From the NCBI GenBank assembly GCA_946482625.1, contig CAMLSH010000028.1, forward strand, positions 1 through 15,966: a stretch of 15,966 bases of DNA, in the 5' to 3' direction. The notes under the pieces were generated by a model. That model was not told where the DNA came from. It did not search any database and worked only from the letters and a program-made list of their open reading frames with translations. A program made the position numbers and the translations under genes. The DNA is from an uncultured Opitutaceae bacterium. GTDB taxonomy: Bacteria; Verrucomicrobiota; Verrucomicrobiae; Opitutales; Opitutaceae. Below are positions 6,296 through 15,609 of this stretch, in pieces. Within the stretch, counting starts at the first letter, position 1. Each line of letters starts with the position of its first letter.

Positions 6296-8629
6296 ATGAA
6301 ACTTCGCGAAGCCATTCTCGCCCAGCTCCAACACCCCAACTATCGCCCCACCGACGAAACCGGTCTCGTCAAGCTCCTCGGCCTTCAGAAAAAGGAGCGC
6401 AAAATCCTCACCCACGAGGTCCGCATCCTCCTCAGCAAAGGCCTGCTTCAACGCGTGCGCGGCGACCGTCTCGCCCTCGCCAAAGGCGACGACGCCGGCG
6501 ACTCCCTCCGCGGTCGCATCCAATTTCGCGCCGGCGGCTCCGCGATTTTTCTCCCCGACGCCGAGCGCGCCGGCGAACGCGTTGACGGCATCCAGATCGC
6601 CTCCGACGACACCGGCGTCGCCCTCCACGGCGACCGTGTCGAAGTCGAGGTCAACGCCGGCCTCCAGCGCCGTCGCGACGGTCGCGGCACCGAGCAAACC
6701 GGCCGCATCGTCCGCGTCATCGCGCGCGCCCGCGACGAGATCGTCGGCCATCTCCAAAAAATCCGCGGCACCTTCTACGTCACCCCCGACGACCCGCGCC
6801 TCATCCACGACATCTACGTGCCCGATCCCGCGTCGAGCGGCGTGAAACCGGTCCCCGCCCCCGGCGACAAAGTCGTCGTCAAGCTCGGCGAGTGGAACCA
6901 GCGCCATCACAAACTCGAAGGCGTTATCACCGAGCGCCTCGGCAAAACCTTCGAACCCCGCGCCGAACTCGCCGGCATCTATCGCAAGTACAAACTCGAC
7001 ACCGCCTTCCCCGCCGAGGTCGAACGCGAGGTCGCCACCATTCCGCCCACCGTCCAGCCCAAGGAACTCACCGGCCGTCTCGACTATCGGGATACGCCCA
7101 CGTTCACGATCGATCCCGACGACGCCAAAGACTTCGACGACGCCCTCTCGCTTGAGGCACTCGAAAACGGCGATGTCTGCATCGGCATCCATATCGCGGA
7201 TGTCAGCACCTATGTGAAACCCGGCACCGCCCTCGACCGCGAAGCTCAAAAACGCGGCAACTCCACCTATCTCGTCGGCACCGTCGTGCCCATGCTGCCG
7301 GAGAAATTGTCCAACGGCCTCTGCTCCCTCGTCGAAGCGCAGGACCGCCTCTGCAAAGCCGTCTTCCTCACCTTCGATAAAAAGAACCGCCTCAAAGAAA
7401 CCGGCTACGGCAACACCGTCATCCGCTCGCTCAAACGCCTCACCTACAAACAGGCCTACGCGTTCCTCTTCACCGACGACATCGCCAAGATCCGCTCGCT
7501 CCCGCTCCCGCCCAAACACCAGACCGGCTCCACCGGCCGCGCGCTCAACGAACTCTCCGACACTGAGCTGAACAATCTGCAAACGTGGATTCGCCAGCTC
7601 TGGCGCATCGCCAGCCGCCTGCGCACCGACCGCATGGCCAACGGCTCCCTCGACCTCGACATGCCTGAGACGAAAGTCTTCGTCGACGCCGAGGGTTACG
7701 CCGACCGCCTCGAAAAAATCGAGCACGACGAAAGCCACCAACTCATCGAGGAGTTCATGCTCGCCGCCAACGAGGCCGTCGCCCGCGTCACCCGCCACCA
7801 CAAACTCCCGTCGCTCTACCGCGTCCACGACGAGCCCGACGCCGACAAACTCGACGAACTCCGCCAGCTCCTTGGCACTTTCAACGTCGAAACCGGCGAC
7901 CTCACCAAACGCGAAGAGATCGTGAAGCTCCTGCTGACCTTGGAGAAACACCCGCAAGGCTACACGCTCCGCACGCAGCTTCTCCGCAGCCTCAAAAAAG
8001 CCGCCTACCGCGCGTCACCGGACGGCCACTACGGTCTCGCGAAGAAAGATTACACCCACTTCACCTCGCCCATCCGTCGTTACAGCGACCTGGTCGTGCA
8101 CCGCGTGTTCGACCACTACCTCGTCAAACACGCCGGCCAGCCCGCACCCGCCGGGACAAAACCCGCCCTCACCCTCGGCCAGATGGAATCCATCGGCGAA
8201 CACCTCAGCATTACCGAGATCAACAGCGCCGAAGCGGAGCGCGAGAGCGTGAAGATCAAGCTCCTCGAGTTCTTCGAACGCGAACTCGCCAAGGAAGAAA
8301 AGACGCGCTTCGACGCCGTCATCACCGACGTTCGCGGCAACGGCCTCTTTGTCGAGCTTACCGAGTCCATGACGTTCGGATACATCCCGGCGGGTTCGCT
8401 CACCGACGATCAATACCAGCTCAACGCCGCCGGCACCGCGCTCGTCGGCCGCCGCACGAAACGCACGCTCACGCTCAGCGCGCATATCGACGTCGTCGTG
8501 GACAAAGTCGACCGCTTCAAACGCCTCATCGACTTCCGCCTCGCGCCGGAGACCACCGGGAAACCCCACGCCCGTCCTTCTCCCGGCAAACGCGCCACCT
8601 TCACTCCCTCGAAAAAACAGCCCCGCTGA
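6296..8629 (+). CDS. rnr: Ribonuclease R (RNB-family 3'-5' exoribonuclease)
   Basis: From ATG 6296 the protein has 777 residues, within the usual range. It is a processive 3'-5' exoribonuclease that degrades structured RNA in the cytoplasm. The domains in order are an N-terminal winged-helix-like region (about 1-65, ETGLVKLLGLQKKERKIL), two cold-shock/OB regions (about 70-220), the RNB catalytic domain (about 255-590) and a C-terminal S1 domain (about 670-755), with a basic tail rich in K, R and P. The four metal-binding aspartates are D273, D279, D281 and D282 within TIDPDDAKDFDDALSLE. HFTSPIRRYSDLVVHR (about 588-603) is the other diagnostic block. A TTG three bases upstream is in frame, but ATG 6296 is more natural. 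A stretch around 400-440 (PPKHQTGSTGRALNELSD) looks like a small insertion relative to my memory of the family. The response-regulator gene begins 40 bases later. Confidence 0.96.
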   Translation: MKLREAILAQLQHPNYRPTDETGLVKLLGLQKKERKILTHEVRILLSKGLLQRVRGDRLALAKGDDAGDSLRGRIQFRAGGSAIFLPDAERAGERVDGIQIASDDTGVALHGDRVEVEVNAGLQRRRDGRGTEQTGRIVRVIARARDEIVGHLQKIRGTFYVTPDDPRLIHDIYVPDPASSGVKPVPAPGDKVVVKLGEWNQRHHKLEGVITERLGKTFEPRAELAGIYRKYKLDTAFPAEVEREVATIPPTVQPKELTGRLDYRDTPTFTIDPDDAKDFDDALSLEALENGDVCIGIHIADVSTYVKPGTALDREAQKRGNSTYLVGTVVPMLPEKLSNGLCSLVEAQDRLCKAVFLTFDKKNRLKETGYGNTVIRSLKRLTYKQAYAFLFTDDIAKIRSLPLPPKHQTGSTGRALNELSDTELNNLQTWIRQLWRIASRLRTDRMANGSLDLDMPETKVFVDAEGYADRLEKIEHDESHQLIEEFMLAANEAVARVTRHHKLPSLYRVHDEPDADKLDELRQLLGTFNVETGDLTKREEIVKLLLTLEKHPQGYTLRTQLLRSLKKAAYRASPDGHYGLAKKDYTHFTSPIRRYSDLVVHRVFDHYLVKHAGQPAPAGTKPALTLGQMESIGEHLSITEINSAEAERESVKIKLLEFFERELAKEEKTRFDAVITDVRGNGLFVELTESMTFGYIPAGSLTDDQYQLNAAGTALVGRRTKRTLTLSAHIDVVVDKVDRFKRLIDFRLAPETTGKPHARPSPGKRATFTPSKKQPR

Positions 8630-8669
8630 TTGAGGGACCTCCCGCGCGCGGTGCTTGTCCGACGTCGCT

Positions 8670-10067
8670 ATGTCCTCGGAGACCAAACTCCCCGCCGGTT
8701 GCGAAATCCTCCTGTTGGAGGACGACCTTTCGCTGCGTAAACGGCTTTCGCTTCACCTCACTGCGCTCGGCGCCCAAGTGAGCGAAGCAGCCAAGATCGA
8801 GGAGGCCCGCCGGCTCCTCCGCGAAGTCCGCTTCGATTTCGCGGTCATCGATCTCCACCTGCCCGATGGCGAAGCCCTCGTGCTGTTGCGCGAACGCCTG
8901 TTCTCCGAAAACACCGGCGTGGTCGTCATGACCGCATTTGGCGGCATCAAAAAAGCCGTCGAAGCCATGCGCCTCGGCGCCGGCGACTACCTCGCCAAGC
9001 CGTTCGAGTCCGACGAACTCACCCTCGCCTTCCTGCGCTGTCGTCGCGACCGCAACATCTCCCGCCGCGAACAACACCAACTCGCCGCCGCCACCGACAC
9101 CGACGAACTTTTCTTCGGTCACAGCCTCTCCACCATCCGCGAACAGCTCGACACGATCCTAGCCGCCGAGCGCCGCATGGTGACCCATCTCCCGCCGGTG
9201 TTGATCGAAGGCGAAACCGGCACCGGTAAAAGCGCGCTCGCCCGCTGGCTCCATCGCAACGGCCCGCGCGCCGACCAGCCGTTCATCGCCATCAACTGTG
9301 CCGCGCTCCCCGAGCAGTTGGCCGAGTCCGAGCTGTTCGGACACGAACGCGGCGCCTTCACCGACGCGCGCCAGGCCCGCATCGGCCTCTTCGAAGCGGC
9401 CGACGGCGGCACGCTCTTTCTCGACGAGATCGCCTCGTTGTCACCCGCCGCCCAAGCCAAGGTCCTCGTGGCTGTCGAGGAAGGCCGGATACGCCGCTTG
9501 GGATCTGAGAAGGAGTTTGTCGTCGATGTCCGTGTGCTCGCCGCCAGCAACAAACCGCTGCGCGAGGCCGTCGCTGCCGGCGCGTTTCGCGAAGACCTTT
9601 TCCATCGACTCAATCTGTTGCACCTCACCTTGTCGCCGCTCCGCGAACGCGGGCCCGACATCCGCGCGCTCGCAGAACATCTCCTAAAACGCATCGCCGC
9701 CCGCCACCGCCTCAAAGGCGTCACCATCTCCCCCGACGGCGCCGCGCGTCTTCAGACGCAGCCCTGGCCGGGCAACATCCGCGAACTCGCCCACGAGCTC
9801 GAACGCGCCGTGATCTTCTCGCGCTCGCCGTCGCTGGATTTTTCTCATCTCGCGCCCTCGTCTTCCGCGCCGGGCCCGAACTGGCGCCACCCTCAGTGGC
9901 AGCTTCCCGAAATCGGATTTTCGCTCGAAGCCGCCATGCAGGAATTTATCGCCGAAGCCATGCGGGTCACCGATGGCAACGTCTCCGCCGCCGCCCGCCG
10001 CCTCGGCGTCACGCGCGACTACCTGCGCTACCGACTCGCAGAGCTCAAACCCAACGAGCCCGTCTGA
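8670..10067 (+). CDS. Sigma-54-dependent response regulator (NtrC family)
   Basis: The 465-residue protein has the three classic NtrC-type domains. The receiver (about 11-125) has acidic E17-D18-D19, phosphoacceptor D61 (FAVIDLHLPDG), T88 and K110. The AAA+ domain (about 145-385) has Walker A GETGTGKS (181-188), Walker B TLFLDEI (248-254), and arginine-finger region FREDLFHRL (306-314). The C-terminal Fis-type helix-turn-helix is at about 425-460 (VTDGNVSAAARRLGVTRDYLRYRL). It should use ATP hydrolysis to open sigma-54 promoters when phosphorylated. The sigma-54 contact loop reads GAFTDA (228-233), not GAFTGA. An in-frame TTG at 8655 adds only five residues, so ATG 8670 is chosen. Its likely cognate kinase is encoded at 12682-14076. 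The gap right after it contains a sigma-54 promoter and paired repeats, so the barrel gene downstream is its probable target. Confidence 0.94.
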   Translation: MSSETKLPAGCEILLLEDDLSLRKRLSLHLTALGAQVSEAAKIEEARRLLREVRFDFAVIDLHLPDGEALVLLRERLFSENTGVVVMTAFGGIKKAVEAMRLGAGDYLAKPFESDELTLAFLRCRRDRNISRREQHQLAAATDTDELFFGHSLSTIREQLDTILAAERRMVTHLPPVLIEGETGTGKSALARWLHRNGPRADQPFIAINCAALPEQLAESELFGHERGAFTDARQARIGLFEAADGGTLFLDEIASLSPAAQAKVLVAVEEGRIRRLGSEKEFVVDVRVLAASNKPLREAVAAGAFREDLFHRLNLLHLTLSPLRERGPDIRALAEHLLKRIAARHRLKGVTISPDGAARLQTQPWPGNIRELAHELERAVIFSRSPSLDFSHLAPSSSAPGPNWRHPQWQLPEIGFSLEAAMQEFIAEAMRVTDGNVSAAARRLGVTRDYLRYRLAELKPNEPV

Positions 10068-10075
10068 CCGGCTCT

Positions 10076-10133
10076 CTGGGTGAGTTCCCCCGATCACTCG
10101 CCCGCGCCGTGCGTGGACTGGGTGAAAGTTCCC
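10076..10133 (+). promoter_or_regulatory. Paired direct repeat, candidate enhancer (UAS) for the sigma-54 regulator
   Basis: CTGGGTGAGTTCCC (10076-10089) and CTGGGTGAAAGTTCCC (10118-10133) differ only by an AA insertion. Their starts are 42 bases apart, four turns of the helix. Relative to the start site predicted from the sigma-54 promoter they centre at about -165 and -122, the usual enhancer distance for NtrC-type activators. Each has partial dyad character (GGG...CCC; GAA-AG-TTC in the second). Binding by the neighbouring regulator is inference. Confidence 0.5.
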
Positions 10134-10189
10134 AACTCAAGCGGCAGCGGCCGTCGCGGAAAACCGTCCGAAACGACGCATCCCGTTTT

Positions 10190-10212
10190 GCGTAACGAGA
10201 TTACGGTTACGC
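10190..10212. promoter_or_regulatory. Inverted repeat just upstream of the sigma-54 promoter
   Basis: GCGTAAC (10190-10196) and GTTACGC (10206-10212) form perfect 7-base arms around a 9-base centre (GAGATTACG). It ends 9 bases before the -24 element and centres near -47. It could be an operator or bending site. A terminator for the upstream gene is less likely since no T-run follows. Confidence 0.35.
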
Positions 10213-10221
10213 GCGCGCCAG

Positions 10222-10237
10222 TGGCACGCGCATGGCA
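10222..10237 (+). promoter_or_regulatory. Sigma-54 (-24/-12) promoter for the outer-membrane protein gene
   Basis: TGGCACGCGCATGGCA matches the sigma-54 consensus TGGCACG-N4-TTGCW in every fixed position except one (TT to TG at -14). The essential GG (-25/-24, 10223-10224) and GC (-13/-12, 10235-10236) have exact spacing. The predicted start is about 10248, ten bases before ATG 10258. Its position right behind a sigma-54 activator gene supports the call. Confidence 0.65.
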
Positions 10238-10257
10238 AAGACAGCGGTGTTCATCCT

Positions 10258-10941
10258 ATGAAAAAACACCTCCTCATTCCTGTCATCGCACTGCTGCCGT
10301 GGACTGCCCAGGCCGCGGTCTCCGTCTATCTGGAGCCTCGCGTTTCCCACGTGCTGTACTCTGGAGATCCCCGACTGGAAAACGACCACGGCGTCGTCAT
10401 CGAGTCCGATCTTCCCAACGCCGTCGGCACTTTGGTCGCCGGAGTCGAAATCACACCACACGTCGGCATCGAGCTGCGCTACTCCATGCTCGACGATCTC
10501 CGAGTGCGGCGAATCTACCCCAGCTGGTCGTGGGGCATCGGCCTCCCCGGCGATCCGATCATCGCCAGCCCGGACGTGCTCAGCATCGTTCCTTGGTGGT
10601 ATCCCGAATATGAGCACCACCAAAAATCCACGCTGTTTTCCCTCGGCGTCCCCATCAAGATCGCGCGACTCGACAAACTCTCCGTGTCGTTCACCCCGCT
10701 TCTCACCCAAGAAGAATCGGAAGTGACCATCAGCCAGATGCCGTGGCCCTACGACGTCATCATTGCCGGCCAGAAGATCGTGATCCGCCGCGAAAAAGAA
10801 ACGTCCCTGCACGCCGGTGCCGAGCTGAGTGTCAACATCCAGGTCCACGAACACCTGAGCGTGAACGCGAGCTACACTTATTCTTCGCTCGAAACCTTCG
10901 ACGCCTCCTTCGCAAGCATCGGCCTGCGCGTGAAATTCTAG
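10258..10941 (+). CDS. Predicted outer-membrane beta-barrel protein
   Basis: The 227-residue protein starts with a clear signal peptide, MKKHLLIPVIALLPWTAQA, with predicted cleavage after residue 19. The mature part shows alternating hydrophobic strands, such as VSVYLEPRVSHVLY, NAVGTLVAGVEITPHVGIELRYSM, STLFSLGVPIKIARL, SLHAGAELSVNIQVHEHLSVNASYTYSS and FASIGLRVKF. It ends in phenylalanine, the usual C-terminal signature of barrel proteins inserted by BamA. The size fits an eight-stranded OmpA/OmpX-like barrel. A loop rich in W, Y and P (about 84-122, YPSWSWGIGLP and WWYPEYEHHQ) would be surface-exposed. I do not recognise a specific family. The sigma-54 promoter and paired repeats upstream suggest control by the adjacent regulator. 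No Shine-Dalgarno is seen, and a hairpin terminator follows 31 bases after the stop. Confidence 0.8.
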   Translation: MKKHLLIPVIALLPWTAQAAVSVYLEPRVSHVLYSGDPRLENDHGVVIESDLPNAVGTLVAGVEITPHVGIELRYSMLDDLRVRRIYPSWSWGIGLPGDPIIASPDVLSIVPWWYPEYEHHQKSTLFSLGVPIKIARLDKLSVSFTPLLTQEESEVTISQMPWPYDVIIAGQKIVIRREKETSLHAGAELSVNIQVHEHLSVNASYTYSSLETFDASFASIGLRVKF

Positions 10942-10972
10942 AAAATCTCTGACCCGCGCGACTCTCCCATGG

Positions 10973-11010
10973 AACGCCCGGCCCCCGTCGCCCTCGCAAG
11001 GCCGGGCGTT
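10973..11010 (+). terminator. Strong hairpin, probable terminator of the outer-membrane protein gene
   Basis: AACGCCCGGCC (10973-10983) and GGCCGGGCGTT (11000-11010) form a perfect 11-base stem around a 16-base loop. One T follows the arm, giving TTT in all, then CCCC, so the U-tract is short. The position 31 bases after the barrel gene and 60 bases before the next ATG suits a terminator that separates the two units. Confidence 0.6.
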
Positions 11011-11070
11011 TCCCCGCGAGAAAACAGGATTGATTGCCGTCCCGCGGAACCCTTTGTCGATTACCTCCCC

Positions 11071-12666
11071 ATGAAACTCCGCCGCACCCACCGCCTGAAC
11101 GCGATCGGATGGTTTCTCTCTCTCCTCGCGTGCTGCTCGCTCGCGACGCCGGCCATCTTGGCCCAGACCAATTCCGGCAACCCGCCCGGTGCCGGCAACT
11201 CCAGCGTCGGTGACGGCAGTGTGCGCCCGGTCCCGCGTTCCCCCGTTATCATCAACAGCGGCAGCCGCGGCCTCGGCTCTCCACGGCTCAGTACATCCCT
11301 CTCAGCGCTGTTGCCGATTTACTTTCCGCCAGCTCCGCCCGTGCTCGGCGCCGAACTCCCGCCCCAGCCGGCCGTGCGCGATTCCGTCTGGAACGAACTC
11401 ACACCCTGGAGCAACGAGCCCTTCTTCGCCCCGCTGAGCACGCGCCTCGCCCAAGGCGACCTCAACCGCAAGCATCGCGAGAAACTGGATACGTACAAAA
11501 CCACCCAAGCCGCCCTGCTCGCCGAACTCCGCACCCAACTAGACGCCGTCGCTTCCGCCGCCCCTTCCGCCCGCAAAGCCGCACTTCAAACGCTCGCCAC
11601 CGCCCAGGAGCCCCGCCTTCAACAACTCGCCGCCGACGCCGACGAGCTCCGCCGTGAGCTCTATCGCTACACCTTGCTCACCCAGGGCGCCGACTGGAAC
11701 GAACACCGCAACTGGCACCTCGGCGGCGATGACGGCAAACGCACCGCCCGCGAAAAAATCGGCGACGAACACAGCGTGGTCCGCGCCGCCATTTATTATC
11801 AGGAAGGACTCTCCTCTCAGCAACGGGAGCTCCTGAAGGAGGTCGTCATCGAACTCGCCGCCATGCTCGGAGAAGTGGATACGCCTCCCGCTTCCGACGG
11901 CTTTGAGCCCGATCAATTTCTTTTCTTCATGCCTCACGGATCGCGCCTGCGCGTGCCGTCCGATATCTCCGCAGATCTCTCGTCAGAAATCGCTGCCTTC
12001 ACTGCGGAGAAGACCGCGCTCAAACGAGAGCTGCGCGAAGCCATTTTCTCCCTCGACCGCGAAACACCCGGCAAACGCGAACGCGCCCTCCGCGACCTCG
12101 CCGCCGACCACGAGCCGCGTTTCGCCGCCCTCGAAGCAAAGGCCGAACATATCCGCGAGTCCCTGTCCACGATTCCCGCGCTCCAACCGGCGGCGCCCCC
12201 GACCGAGTGGCCGCCGGCACTCGCCGCCCGTATGAGCGCCTACTTGAGCGAGAAAGCGGAATTCCAAAAAGCCGCGCAACGACAGGCGCAAGATGCCGGC
12301 AAAAACAGTTCGGGGAAGAAATCCCCAGACGCATCCGCCAACGGCCGCGAAGCGCTGGCCGAGTTTGAAGATAAGAACCGCGCCCGTCTCGCCGCCCTCA
12401 CCGCCGAAGCCCGCGCGATTCGCGAGGAGGTCGCCCGTATCGCCAAATCGCGCACCGAAAAAGGCGCCGGCAAATCCGTGGACGCCCTGCTCGGCGACTT
12501 CATGCAGGCATACAAGCAGGAGCAGCTGCAAAAGCTCTACCGCGACTATCACCTCGCCGTGCTCGAACCGGGGCTCTCGGCCAGACAGCGCCAACTGTTA
12601 TTCGACGCCGCGATCGCCTCACTCGATCTCACCGGCGTGAAAGACTGGCAGGCCGTTCCGGAATAA
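11071..12666 (+). CDS. Secreted coiled-coil protein with internal repeats, function unknown
   Basis: From ATG 11071 the protein has 531 residues. A signal peptide (MKLRRTHRLNAIGWFLSLLA onward, predicted cleavage after AILA, about residue 32) points to the periplasm or outer membrane. A low-complexity G/N/S/P segment follows (about 33-75). Three diverged helical repeats lie at about 139-201, 307-369 and 388-458, sharing a pattern of K-x-A-L, then A-L-x-x-L-A, then E-P-R-x-x-A-L-x-A-x-A-x-x-I-R-x-E-L. Between and after them are two further related segments, GLSSQQRELLKE and GLSARQRQLLFDA. The LSxxQRxLL pattern resembles the LTxxQ motif of Spy/CpxP/ZraP periplasmic proteins, but homology is not established. 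The in-frame ATG at 10969 would start inside the terminator hairpin and destroy the signal peptide, so it is rejected. The kinase gene begins 15 bases after the stop, a likely operon. Confidence 0.82.
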   Translation: MKLRRTHRLNAIGWFLSLLACCSLATPAILAQTNSGNPPGAGNSSVGDGSVRPVPRSPVIINSGSRGLGSPRLSTSLSALLPIYFPPAPPVLGAELPPQPAVRDSVWNELTPWSNEPFFAPLSTRLAQGDLNRKHREKLDTYKTTQAALLAELRTQLDAVASAAPSARKAALQTLATAQEPRLQQLAADADELRRELYRYTLLTQGADWNEHRNWHLGGDDGKRTAREKIGDEHSVVRAAIYYQEGLSSQQRELLKEVVIELAAMLGEVDTPPASDGFEPDQFLFFMPHGSRLRVPSDISADLSSEIAAFTAEKTALKRELREAIFSLDRETPGKRERALRDLAADHEPRFAALEAKAEHIRESLSTIPALQPAAPPTEWPPALAARMSAYLSEKAEFQKAAQRQAQDAGKNSSGKKSPDASANGREALAEFEDKNRARLAALTAEARAIREEVARIAKSRTEKGAGKSVDALLGDFMQAYKQEQLQKLYRDYHLAVLEPGLSARQRQLLFDAAIASLDLTGVKDWQAVPE

Positions 12667-12681
12667 AGCGCCCCGCCGGCC

Positions 12682-14076
12682 ATGCCCCGTCGTCCACGCC
12701 TTCTCCTGTTGTTCGTCGCGATTGGGCTCGCCCTGTCCAGCATTCATGCCGCCACGCTCCTGTGGTTTCGCCACGGACTTCAGAAGGAGATCAAACGCAC
12801 CATCGTCGGTCGCGACTCCGCCGTCTTTCAACCGGTCGTGCGCCAACAAATCGCCCAGGCCGAAATCCGCACCGGCACCACTCCGCTGCGCGTGGATGAG
12901 CTCCTTTCCGCCGTGCTGCCCAGCGCCCAACAAGAAGGCATGCTCGCCATGGCCGTCTTCGATAAACAAGGCGCGCTTCTCCGCGCATTGCCCGACACCT
13001 TGCTCTTCGCCGAGCTCGCCGCCGAAGACTACCTTACGCTCCTTGCCGGAACTCCCGTCAGCCGCTTTCACCCCGACTTCCCGCTCGACCGTTACTTCAG
13101 CGGCACCGCCGCCGCCGTAACCGCGCCCGTACTTGAAGTTCTCCTACCGCTGGAGGGCAGCGTCTCCGGCCAGCAGCTCGGCTTCGCCCAATACTATCTC
13201 GATGCACGTGCGCTCAACGACGAGCTCGCGCTGATCGACCGCCAGCAGCGGAGCCAGACTTGGGCAACGTTTGCACTCGGCACTGGCCTGATCGCCCTCG
13301 TGCTCGGCCTTGCCTACCACGGACTCATTCGCGCTCAACGCCTGCTGCATGAACGCAACGCCCGGCTCGCGCGCGCCAATTCTGAACTCACGCTTTCCGC
13401 CAAAACTTCCGCGCTCGGCCAGATCACCTCGCACCTCATCCACGGCCTGCAGGGTTCGGTCGCCGGCCTCTGCTCGGTCGTCAGCGCCGAGTCGCCCGAC
13501 AAAGCGGATTGGGAGACCGCCGCGCGTTACGCCGACCGCATGCGCAACTTGATCGCCGAGATCGTCTGCCTGCTCGGCGACGCGCACACCGGCGCTCGCG
13601 CCGAGATCGCCGGCTGGGAACTCGCTGAAATCATCCGCCAGCGAAACACCCCGGTCGCCAACGCCCACGGAGTCCGGCTGATCGTCAAAGACGATCTGAC
13701 CGCCGGCATCGATGGACACACCGGAAGCATTCTCTGCCTGATCGCCTCCAACCTCGTCCACAACGCTGTCAAAGCCTCTGCTCGCGGCTCGCGTATCGAA
13801 ATTCATTTTACCTGCACGAGGGAGCGAATCTCCATGGTCGTTCTCGATGAAGGCACCGGCATCCCGCCCAACGTTCGCACGCGCCTCTTCGAACCCGGCG
13901 TGACCGGCGGACCCGACGGCTCGGGTCTGGGCCTGGCGATCAGCCGCCTCCTCGCGCGCCAGATTCACGGGGACCTAGAACTGCTTTTCACCGGTCCCAC
14001 CGGAACGTCGTTCCGCGTTTCGATGCCGACCGCCGACATCTCGTCGGTGAGTTCGCCAGCGGTCTTGCAGAACTAA
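12682..14076 (+). CDS. Membrane-bound sensor histidine kinase
   Basis: The 464-residue protein has an N-terminal helix (about 7-29), an extracytoplasmic sensor domain of about 165 residues, a second helix (about 193-214), a short coiled segment, then dimerisation and HATPase domains. The H-box ALGQITSHLIHGLQGSVAGL places phosphoacceptor H254. N-box SNLVHNAVKAS (356-366), G1 DEGTGIP (389-395), F403 and G2 GSGLGLAIS (413-421) are intact. The residue after the histidine is G255, not the usual E or D, and the following N-P-L is Q-G-S. It probably senses an envelope signal and phosphorylates the sigma-54 regulator encoded 2.6 kb upstream in the same cluster; that pairing is inference. It lies 15 bases after the coiled-coil gene, so the two are likely co-transcribed. 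Confidence 0.92.
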   Translation: MPRRPRLLLLFVAIGLALSSIHAATLLWFRHGLQKEIKRTIVGRDSAVFQPVVRQQIAQAEIRTGTTPLRVDELLSAVLPSAQQEGMLAMAVFDKQGALLRALPDTLLFAELAAEDYLTLLAGTPVSRFHPDFPLDRYFSGTAAAVTAPVLEVLLPLEGSVSGQQLGFAQYYLDARALNDELALIDRQQRSQTWATFALGTGLIALVLGLAYHGLIRAQRLLHERNARLARANSELTLSAKTSALGQITSHLIHGLQGSVAGLCSVVSAESPDKADWETAARYADRMRNLIAEIVCLLGDAHTGARAEIAGWELAEIIRQRNTPVANAHGVRLIVKDDLTAGIDGHTGSILCLIASNLVHNAVKASARGSRIEIHFTCTRERISMVVLDEGTGIPPNVRTRLFEPGVTGGPDGSGLGLAISRLLARQIHGDLELLFTGPTGTSFRVSMPTADISSVSSPAVLQN

Positions 14077-14102
14077 TTGTTTCGTCTGCCCGGCTCGCGC
14101 GA

Positions 14103-14133
14103 CAACGAGAAGTTCTCGTGCTCGTTGCGTTTT
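14103..14133 (+). terminator. Candidate terminator after the histidine kinase gene
   Basis: CAACGAG (14103-14109) and CTCGTTG (14121-14127) form a seven-base stem with an 11-base loop, followed by CGTTTT. An overlapping perfect 15-base palindrome, ACGAGAA-G-TTCTCGT (14105-14119), offers an alternative pairing or a protein-binding site. The hairpin lies in the 86-base gap between the kinase and the DUF5069-like gene. Confidence 0.38.
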
Positions 14134-14162
14134 CCGGCGTTCTGAATTCTTCAGTCTGCGAC

Positions 14163-14696
14163 ATGAGACACTACGATTTCGCCAAGACGTTCCGCTCCAT
14201 CTACGACAATGCCGTTTCCCTCTACGCACAGGGCAAACGCGAGGCCGCCGCGCTGCTGTCCGCCGAGGAACGCGCCTTTCTCGCCGCCAACGGCATCACC
14301 GCCCAGCACATCTACGACTACGCCGAGGATCACAACAATTACGCGGGCGAACCCGGTTTCGAAATCGCCCTCGGCGTAGAACTCATCCGCCGCGACTACT
14401 TCCTCAACGTTCAGGACGGCAAGCCCTCCACCGTCGTGCTCGACGAATCGAAACTTCCCGCCAAGACGGACGCCGTCCGTGGCATCGAGTGGCTCCCCCG
14501 CATCATCCCGAAAGTGAAAGCCAAACTCCGCGGCGAACTCCCTGCCTCGTTGATGTATTGCTGCGGCGGCGACAGAAAATTCCTCAAGGCGCACGACATC
14601 CTTCCCGCCGAGTTCCTCTCGCTCGTCTGGCGCAATCTGCACAACGACGACGCCACCATCGACTGGGTCGTCAAACGCAGCGCCGCCCAGAAATAA
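14163..14696 (+). CDS. DUF5069-like protein of unknown function
   Basis: From ATG 14163 the protein has 177 residues and is soluble, with no signal peptide or membrane helix. The N-terminal part is helical (MRHYDFAKTFRSIYDNAVSL and so on). The C-terminal part, GIEWLPRIIPKVKAKLRGEL (107-126) followed by CCGGDRKFLKAHDILPAEFL (133-152) and WVV, matches my memory of the DUF5069 pattern: WLPR-I-x-KARAKL, a cysteine/aspartate motif, then an acidic end. Function is unknown for that family. An upstream in-frame start at 14118 would fall inside the palindromic hairpin and add a poorly conserved leader, so 14163 is chosen. A REP-like repeat begins at the last base of its stop codon. Confidence 0.78.
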   Translation: MRHYDFAKTFRSIYDNAVSLYAQGKREAAALLSAEERAFLAANGITAQHIYDYAEDHNNYAGEPGFEIALGVELIRRDYFLNVQDGKPSTVVLDESKLPAKTDAVRGIEWLPRIIPKVKAKLRGELPASLMYCCGGDRKFLKAHDILPAEFLSLVWRNLHNDDATIDWVVKRSAAQK

Positions 14697-14982: not shown

Positions 14983-15609
14983 TCACTTCGGCCGGATCGG
15001 CGCTCGCGAGTGCGTGCCGTACAGCCGGTTTTCACACTCCGGACAAAACCCATGCGTGAACTCGATACCCGCGTGCTTCTGGAAATACTCTTCCAGCTTC
15101 GTCCAGCGGCCGTCGTCTTCGTGGATTTTTTTGCAGCCCGCGCAGATCGGCAGCAGTCCGCGCAATTCCCGTAGGCTCGCATTCGCCGCCTCCTGCGCCG
15201 GTCGCAGCGTGGCGCGCTCGGCCTCCAATTGATGTCGATGGAGCGCTAGTTCGAGGCTCACGAAAAGTTGATCCGAGTTGAAAGGCTTTAGCACGAAACC
15301 GTACGGCTCCGCTTCCTTCGCGCGTTTCAAAACAGCCGGCTCCATCTGCGCCGTGAGAAAAACGACCGGACGCCCCACGCTAAGCCGGATCTGTTTCGCC
15401 GCCTCGGCGCCGTCGATCGATCCCCGCAGCCCGATATCCATCAACACGAGATCCGGCGTCTGCGAAAAGGCCTGGCTCACCGCATCGTCGCCATTGTCCA
15501 CCACAGCCACGACTTCGTACCCGAGCCGAAGCAACGTCTGCCCGATCGCTTGAGCAACCAGCGGATCGTCCTCGACGATCAGGATGCGACGCTTGTTGGC
15601 CTTCGTCAT
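14983..15609 (-). CDS. Response regulator receiver protein with C-terminal CxxC/CPxC (putative zinc-binding) module
   Basis: The 208-residue protein has a complete receiver domain (about 7-125): E13-D14-D15, phosphoacceptor D58 (LVLMDIGL), T86 and K108 (VLKPF). A short helical, probably coiled-coil linker (about 126-150) leads to a compact module with C156-x2-C159 (LPICAGCKKIHEDDGRW) and C189-x2-C192 (FTHGFCPECENRLYG). This tail, with the pattern LPICAxCKKI..DxGxW..xExY...H....F.HGxCPxC, is one I recall at the end of various receiver and PAS proteins. The four cysteines suggest zinc binding. No DNA-binding or enzymatic output domain is present, so it may act through protein contacts. No kinase is adjacent on its strand. 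It may be read after fabF, 207 bases upstream, or alone. Confidence 0.9.
   Translation of the reverse strand: MTKANKRRILIVEDDPLVAQAIGQTLLRLGYEVVAVVDNGDDAVSQAFSQTPDLVLMDIGLRGSIDGAEAAKQIRLSVGRPVVFLTAQMEPAVLKRAKEAEPYGFVLKPFNSDQLFVSLELALHRHQLEAERATLRPAQEAANASLRELRGLLPICAGCKKIHEDDGRWTKLEEYFQKHAGIEFTHGFCPECENRLYGTHSRAPIRPK

Follow-up and report, generated by a model that had tools for sequence, protein, structure and literature searches.

A candidate sigma-54 promoter with two phased upstream dyads beside an activator gene in the Opitutales

The -24/-12 consensus of sigma-54 promoters and the position of the transcription start relative to it are well established, and at NtrC-type promoters, such as that of glnA, tandem dyads lie about 100-150 bp upstream of the -24/-12 element and are phased by whole helical turns. 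A sigma-54 response regulator and a kinase serving exported proteins also form the PrsK-PrsR system (XrtA/PEP-CTERM), and the ZraP and Spy families carry an LTxxQ motif. The nearest working analogue of the circuit described here is ZraSR-ZraP of E. coli and Salmonella, in which, according to the excerpts cited, sigma-54 promoters control the kinase-regulator genes together with a periplasmic protein in envelope stress (PMC4987338). Control of envelope genes by sigma-54 has precedents (PMC3162934). A sigma-54 survey mentions Opitutia, and its sections cited here make no mention of the present circuit (PMC12316311); among the matches listed in the open-licence literature, no described regulon of this kind in Opitutales was found.

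The locus considered here lies in a stretch of 15,966 nt (hereafter the window, to which all feature coordinates refer) and comprises, in order, an RNase R-like gene, a response regulator, an intergenic gap, a beta-barrel gene, a secreted helical protein and a histidine kinase (Table 1). The regulator start was set at the ATG at 8670, although translation may instead begin at a TTG at 8655, which would give a longer protein. As judged from sequence, the kinase is the probable partner of the regulator, and the pair is kept together in relatives. On the 3' side of the kinase, the protein at 14118-14696 bears a weak likeness to DUF5069 (25.7 bits against a cut-off of 27), and frames with a similar start (HYDFA..FR) also lie 3' of the kinase in L112 and L117; further on, 14983-15609 (-) encodes a second receiver-domain protein with a cysteine-rich tail, in which Pfam finds no output domain.

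Table 1. Coordinates of the features discussed in the window
Feature	Position	Strand	Basis or remark
Sigma-54-dependent response regulator	8670..10067	+	Pfam Response_reg, Sigma54_activat, HTH_8
Distal dyad CTGGG-N8-CCCGA, imperfect	10076..10093	.	Start 146 bp upstream of the -24 T
Proximal dyad CTGGG-N8-CCCAA	10118..10135	.	Start 104 bp upstream of the -24 T
-24/-12 sigma-54-type promoter TGGCACGCGCATGGC	10222..10236	+	Predicted start 10248
Outer-membrane beta-barrel (OMP_b-brl), first gene past the promoter	10258..10941	+	PF13505
Stem-loop behind the barrel gene	10971..11012	+	Folding z about -2.1; bigger hairpins in relatives
Secreted helical-hairpin protein, two LSxxQRxLL motifs	11071..12666	+	Motif alignment, model, profile match
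Membrane histidine kinase	12682..14076	+	HATPase_c; LIHGLQGSVAG, NLVHNA and GSGLGL boxes

With ZraSR-ZraP the locus shares a two-component sigma-54 activator and a membrane kinase, but it differs in that a barrel gene comes first among the targets, the activator carries GAFTDA, and regulator and targets run in one direction rather than divergently. Against the ZraR and ZraS cut-offs, the regulator reaches 277.8 of 760 bits and the kinase 51 of 479; against the PrsK-PrsR families TIGR02915/TIGR02916, the corresponding values are 297.9 of 502.6 and 46.2 of 300 bits. The LSxxQRxLL motifs of the hairpin protein show no more than a resemblance to the LTxxQ of ZraP/Spy, and no Pfam family of that type was listed for the protein. 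NtrC-type promoters share the tandem phased-dyad layout, whereas the dyad sequence differs (TTGGGnAATATTnCCCAA in the distant clade defined below, CTGGGTGAAAGTTCCCAA in the window). By analogy, the circuit would work like Zra-type sigma-54 envelope systems, and it stays below the curated cut-offs of the families tested.

The original prediction that the adjacent upstream gene encodes a sigma-54 activator is borne out by its domains, a receiver (REC), an AAA+ module (Sigma54_activat) and a Fis-type HTH, which place it in the NtrC class. The sigma-54 contact loop of this regulator family reads GAFTDA rather than the exact GAFTGA, as found in 99 of the 102 entries compared, the other three giving no match to the regular expression. 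GAFTGA prevails among loci L001-L082, which are mostly more distant (83 copies versus 4 of GAFTDA, two of the latter belonging to the orthologue of the window regulator). The same variant occurs in D. vulgaris DVU2106 and Dickeya VfmH, as given in the cited parts of PMC4641369 and PMC10714721; unlike the window regulator, DVU2106 is listed there as single-component and in cell-division operons (PMC4641369). GAFTDA is listed among variants that would keep activity (PMC4641369), VfmH did not pull down sigma-54 (PMC10714721), and in NorR the equivalent change, G266D, frees the activator from repression by its regulatory domain (PMC2941729). The presence of conserved sigma-54-type promoters next to GAFTDA regulators, described below, argues for a working variant here.

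Relatives were sampled outward from L001, the one good relative, a Puniceicoccaceae metagenome-assembled genome (MAG) of 56% identity detected in a scan of genome contigs. In the 372 genomes of its order that were searched, a regulator orthologue at E ≤1e-105 was present in 98, and the comparison set comprised 102 entries (100 fetched loci, L001 and the window). A close clade (L112-L123, 61-72% identity) retains the gene set of the window in whole or part; in a distant clade, the usual order of open frames is regulator, small helical protein, a protein of about 400 residues and kinase. The sigma-54 domain PF04552 was matched in 336 of the 372 genomes, including all nine of the window's clade, and was unmatched in at least five regulator-bearing genomes, for which completeness is not given (G053, G075, G079, G100 and G193).

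The gap had been predicted to hold a near-consensus sigma-54 promoter with one deviation and exact GG-GC spacing, and both features are found at that position: TGGCACGCGCATGGCA (10222-10237) has one mismatch to TGGCACG-N4-TTGCA and an exact GG-N10-GC spacing, and the core TGGCACGCGCATGGC combines TGGCAC at -24 with GG and GC ten bases apart, the -12 half being TGGC, not TTGC. Sites with at most two mismatches number three in the window versus 1.45 expected, and in the 400 bp after the regulator 1 of 20 shuffles reached 13.3 bits, the observed promoter scoring 13.1. The match by itself is thus moderately unusual, and its weight rests on conservation. For the promoter scan, 98 of the 102 entries were scored, those with less than 350 bp after the stop being skipped. 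Sites of at least 12 bits within 400 bp after the regulator stop were present in 39 of 74 kinase-bearing entries (window included), and the remaining 35 scored below 12 bits. The reverse strand gave 1 of 74, and shuffled sequences about 0.01 per locus. At a 16-bit threshold, the same 74 entries gave 20, with none on the reverse strand or in shuffles. Among entries without a kinase, 3 of 24 had such a 12-bit site (L131, L179 and L195), and in all three the stretch available ends at a contig end. No promoter was found between regulator and kinase in L118, where the two are directly adjacent. The regulator stop of L186 is probably misplaced, the gene being far longer than its neighbours, so its rows in the promoter and dyad scans are unreliable.

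Within the window's clade, GGCAC and GC are invariant over nine promoters, and GC alone is constant among the four bases of the -12 half. The start codon lies 28-36 bp past the first -24 base in the window (10236-10258), L112, L115 (two promoters), L116, L117 and L121-L123. A start codon so near the promoter implies a predicted leader of 2-10 nt in those nine promoters, that before the window's barrel being about 10 nt; in the others of the 13 promoters compared (L113, L114, L119 and L120), the distance from -24 to start codon is 46-79 bp.

Upstream of the promoter, two repeats stand at 10076-10089 (CTGGGTGAGTTCCC) and 10118-10133 (CTGGGTGAAAGTTCCC). The pattern CTGGGTGA-N0-2-GTTCCC had no match in 200 dinucleotide shuffles of the window, and the tandem repeats are far beyond chance. 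They had been described as two copies 42 bases apart at about -165 and -122; the positions and the spacing stand, but the direct-repeat reading, with a 2-bp indel, was dropped, since the feature common to relatives is an inverted repeat in one register. In that register, YTGGG-N8-CCCRA, the window reads CTGGG-TGAGTTCC-CCCGA (10076-10093) and CTGGG-TGAAAGTT-CCCAA (10118-10135), that is, two dyads exactly 42 bp apart with centres at about -164 and -122, taking the predicted start at 10248. The exact string CTGGGT(G/A)A-N0-4-GTTCCC was likewise discarded as a conserved element, the window alone matching it among 41 sequences scanned.

A symmetric dyad matrix was built from 87 sites, all outside the window's clade, with the consensus TTGGGnAATATTnCCCAA; its seed core was suggested by the window and its relatives viewed together and is therefore not blind, while the spacing is. 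The matrix gives 17.0 bits to the proximal and 9.2 bits to the distal dyad, and these exceed every other non-overlapping site on either strand of the window; base shuffles of the gap reached 17.0 bits in 0 of 5000 and 9.2 bits in 0.04%. The gap of the distant clade contains TTGGGGAATATTTCCCAA-like inverted repeats, often two. All 41 dyad pairs in which both members score at least 9 bits are 30-33 or 42-44 bp apart, corresponding to three or four helical turns, the window pair being at 42, and none of 20000 draws of spacings from 26-48 was equally phased. Looser dyad lists add pairs at 24 (L143), 34 (L133) and 35 bp (L120). Palindromes counted by no consensus were in excess at 18 bp (41 vs 10.3 expected), as well as at 13, 14 and 16 bp (39, 37 and 36 vs 12.6, 11.6 and 10.6); the 14- and 16-bp excess fits nested parts of the dyad, and that at 13 bp is not explained. 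In the distant clade, the dyad-to-promoter distance showed no sharp periodicity at 10.5 (Rayleigh 0.52 for the nearest dyad, best near 11.5), so our claims are limited to the dyad-dyad spacing and to the fixed distances in the window's clade. At nine loci (L134, L144, L149, L156, L158, L169, L171, L176 and L205), a dyad-like site begins inside the regulator gene, 10 bases from its end, and overlaps the stop codon, so that part of the enhancer would be coding.

Ten clade promoters share one geometry. Counted upstream from the first base of TGGC (CGGC in L121-L123), the distal dyad begins at 146-149 bp and the proximal one at 104-105 bp in the window, L112, L114, L115, the second barrel gene of L115, L116, L117, L121, L122 and L123. 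Half-sites drift within the clade (TGGG, TGGC, TGGT) with the geometry unchanged. Owing to the drift to TGGC/TGGT (TTGGCTG-N4-CAGCCAA), the distant-clade matrix misses the dyads of L115-L117, which were recovered by a looser TGG-N10-CCA rule. Over nine promoters (omitting L122, a near copy of L121), column information is 1.24 bits in the promoter, 0.80 in the proximal dyad, 0.55 in the distal zone, 0.54 between the dyads and 0.48 in the spacer, with 0.34 for random columns; the distal zone is level with the inter-dyad stretch in fixed columns because the distal dyad shifts by 1-3 bp. The conservation expected of relatives that keep the gene pair thus holds on the whole, with exceptions: the proximal dyad of L112 is degenerate, L119 has a promoter and no recognisable dyad, L120 has 35 bp between its dyads and 69 bp from dyad to promoter, L113 fits the clade geometry poorly, and among 61 distant-clade loci, 5 lack a promoter and 9 have a promoter without a dyad by the rules used.

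The element also occurs apart from the regulator. Across the 372 genomes, the dyad-plus-promoter pattern was found at 39 places in 35 genomes, with 7 for a reversed-pattern control. Fifteen of the 39 places directly follow the regulator. Among the remaining 24, 20 were inspected, those in G302, G311, G222 and G210 being left out (regulator search alone for G302 and G311). Ten of the 20 precede the same type of operon (L242, L244, L246, L248, L249, L252, L255, L258, L259 and L260), where the kinase and at least one further operon gene were matched in every case, and the other ten do not. L258 and L259 have the regulator about 0.6 kb and 2.3 kb away, L246, L248 and L244 have it at 9 to 17 kb, and L260 (G095) has it on the same contig at about 0.84 Mb; for the remaining relocated operons, it is on other contigs, a fragment of 51% identity (G192) or absent (G043, where the operon has dyad and promoter and the best regulator match is 39% identical). 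Eight of the ten genomes possess the regulator at E ≤1e-105. In G014, the C25 regulator-kinase pair (L118) lacks the barrel and hairpin genes, and a different contig carries the element immediately before a gene for a hairpin protein (L265, E 7e-46); this unlinked site could be served by the additional, distant-type regulator of G014 (C17, L141). In the close clade the element search gave 9 places versus 5 for the reversed pattern, so single extra matches are not proof.

Dyad and promoter were also seen before other genes in L245/L247 (G353, G351), L250/L251 (G343, G345) and L267 (G115), in two cases before similar-looking genes in two genomes, and these are possible further regulon members. 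A PQQ-type beta-propeller gene identified by Pfam follows the kinase in the L125 operon (7689-9203), and PQQ-propeller matches occur in eight of the ten relocated operons (L244, L248, L249, L252, L255, L258, L259 and L260).

Regarding the targets, the barrel named in the original prediction is upheld, but not as the sole one, as the conserved target is wider and probably includes the hairpin protein and the kinase. The barrel passes PF13505 (33.2 bits vs a cut-off of 28.7); a protein search returned itself and one 75% relative, and more distant barrels adjoin the regulators of relatives. Independent support for the barrel as a target comes from L115, where a further barrel paralogue is preceded by a promoter and dyad pair of its own, with the distances unchanged. 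The hairpin protein (531 aa) has LSxxQRxLL-type motifs that are invariant over 11 aligned relatives and is modelled as helical hairpins (mean pLDDT 73). Its 95 relatives (7996 candidates scored) are unnamed or hypothetical, and the named organisms among them are Opitutae. No Pfam family, including the ZraP type, was listed for it (max_evalue 10, with HMMER filters dropping most matches above about 0.1), and no solved relative was found by sequence profile (best E 0.8). Fold searches with two helical models gave weak helical matches, none at E ≤0.001 (families listed only). In a profile comparison, its residues 289-452 matched the distant clade's small helical protein (probability 97.6, E 4e-12), although composition alone can produce matches between helical profiles. 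The hairpin proteins would be a new family of secreted proteins without a Pfam entry, probably following the barrel as a target.

Between these two genes, the window stem-loop lies directly behind the barrel and is followed by TTTCC, with no long T run; it may be a partial terminator or an mRNA stabiliser. Larger stem-loops occur in relatives at L115:4770-4882, L115:5704-5804, L116:5424-5539 (-), L117:5136-5226 and L112:5494-5619 (-), with up to 32 pairs, a 5-nt bulge and compensatory changes at six pairs over the five sequences. Their folding z ranges from -4.0 to -5.0 in L115-L117 and is -1.6 in L112, compared with -2.1 in the window. A model from the five recovered those five places alone in nine genomes (150 candidates scored per genome) and matched the window weakly, on the opposite strand; Rfam gave nothing at gathering threshold in the window, L112 or L115-L117.

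Taken together, the conserved promoter, the phased dyads and the domains of the regulator agree with the NtrC-type architecture originally proposed. We consider it likely, from the sequence comparisons, that the gap combines a sigma-54 promoter with a two-site enhancer for the regulator encoded just upstream, which very probably turns on the adjoining promoter. These comparisons support the promoter, the dyads, their geometry and phasing, and the link to the target genes; binding of the dyads by the regulator, looping, read-through to the kinase and an envelope signal are what we infer from them. In the proposed circuit, the kinase would phosphorylate the regulator, which would bind the two 18-bp dyads on one helix face, four turns apart, allowing its AAA+ ring to assemble; looping over about ten turns would then open the RNA polymerase-sigma-54 complex at TGGCACG-N6-GC. 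Transcription would start near 10248 and yield the outer-membrane barrel, and read-through past the stem-loop would yield the secreted hairpin protein and the kinase, so that the circuit would boost its own sensor. The hairpin protein would most likely report or buffer the state of the envelope, as ZraP does for ZraSR; an envelope role of the circuit as a whole appears evenly balanced.

That the promoter match and repeats are chance features of a GC-rich gap is very improbable, for a single promoter match in isolation is not rare, but conservation, geometry and the tests on unlinked elements contradict such an origin. Alternatively, the promoter may be a genuine sigma-54 promoter and the dyads operators of another repressor or activator, with the adjacent regulator acting elsewhere. 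The assignment of site to protein indeed rests on co-occurrence, and G043 has dyad, promoter and operon with no close regulator orthologue. This explanation is nevertheless improbable: a pair of phased dyads held some ten turns from the promoter is what a hexameric enhancer-binding protein would need, more than a repressor, and most relocated operons occur in genomes that have the regulator.

A more serious alternative, which we still hold to be unlikely, concerns the extent of the transcript: the promoter may serve the barrel alone, with the stem-loop ending the message and the hairpin protein and kinase expressed from another promoter. The stem-loop after the barrel stop, larger in four relatives, makes read-through uncertain, the barrel and hairpin-protein genes are 129 bp apart, and in L113 a separate sigma-54-type site lies 46 bp ahead of the hairpin-protein start. 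Against this, the promoter directly precedes the hairpin-protein gene in L119-L123, a consensus scan of the + strand from 8400 to 14300 found no sigma-70-like promoter, and the window stem lacks the long T run noted above. Under the preferred reading of the gap as promoter and enhancer for the adjacent regulator, a broader and tentative proposal is an order-wide Opitutales envelope circuit with a fixed GAFTDA, and, in the window's clade, near-leaderless barrel and hairpin transcripts (predicted leader of 2-10 nt in 9 of 13 promoters) together with a conserved RNA structure separating the barrel gene from that of the hairpin protein; as GAFTDA is the equivalent of NorR G266D, control in such a circuit may rest on phosphorylation-driven assembly alone.

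A natural family with a fixed GAFTDA raises the question of how a change that made NorR constitutive is compatible with regulation. The locus offers a complete, testable circuit of sensor, activator, two-site enhancer, promoter and targets, and its analysis provides a matrix for the binding site, a rule for the spacing and a family of secreted proteins absent from Pfam. With a promoter and two palindromes regularly spaced in many relatives, what would be an undescribed control circuit of the cell envelope becomes testable.
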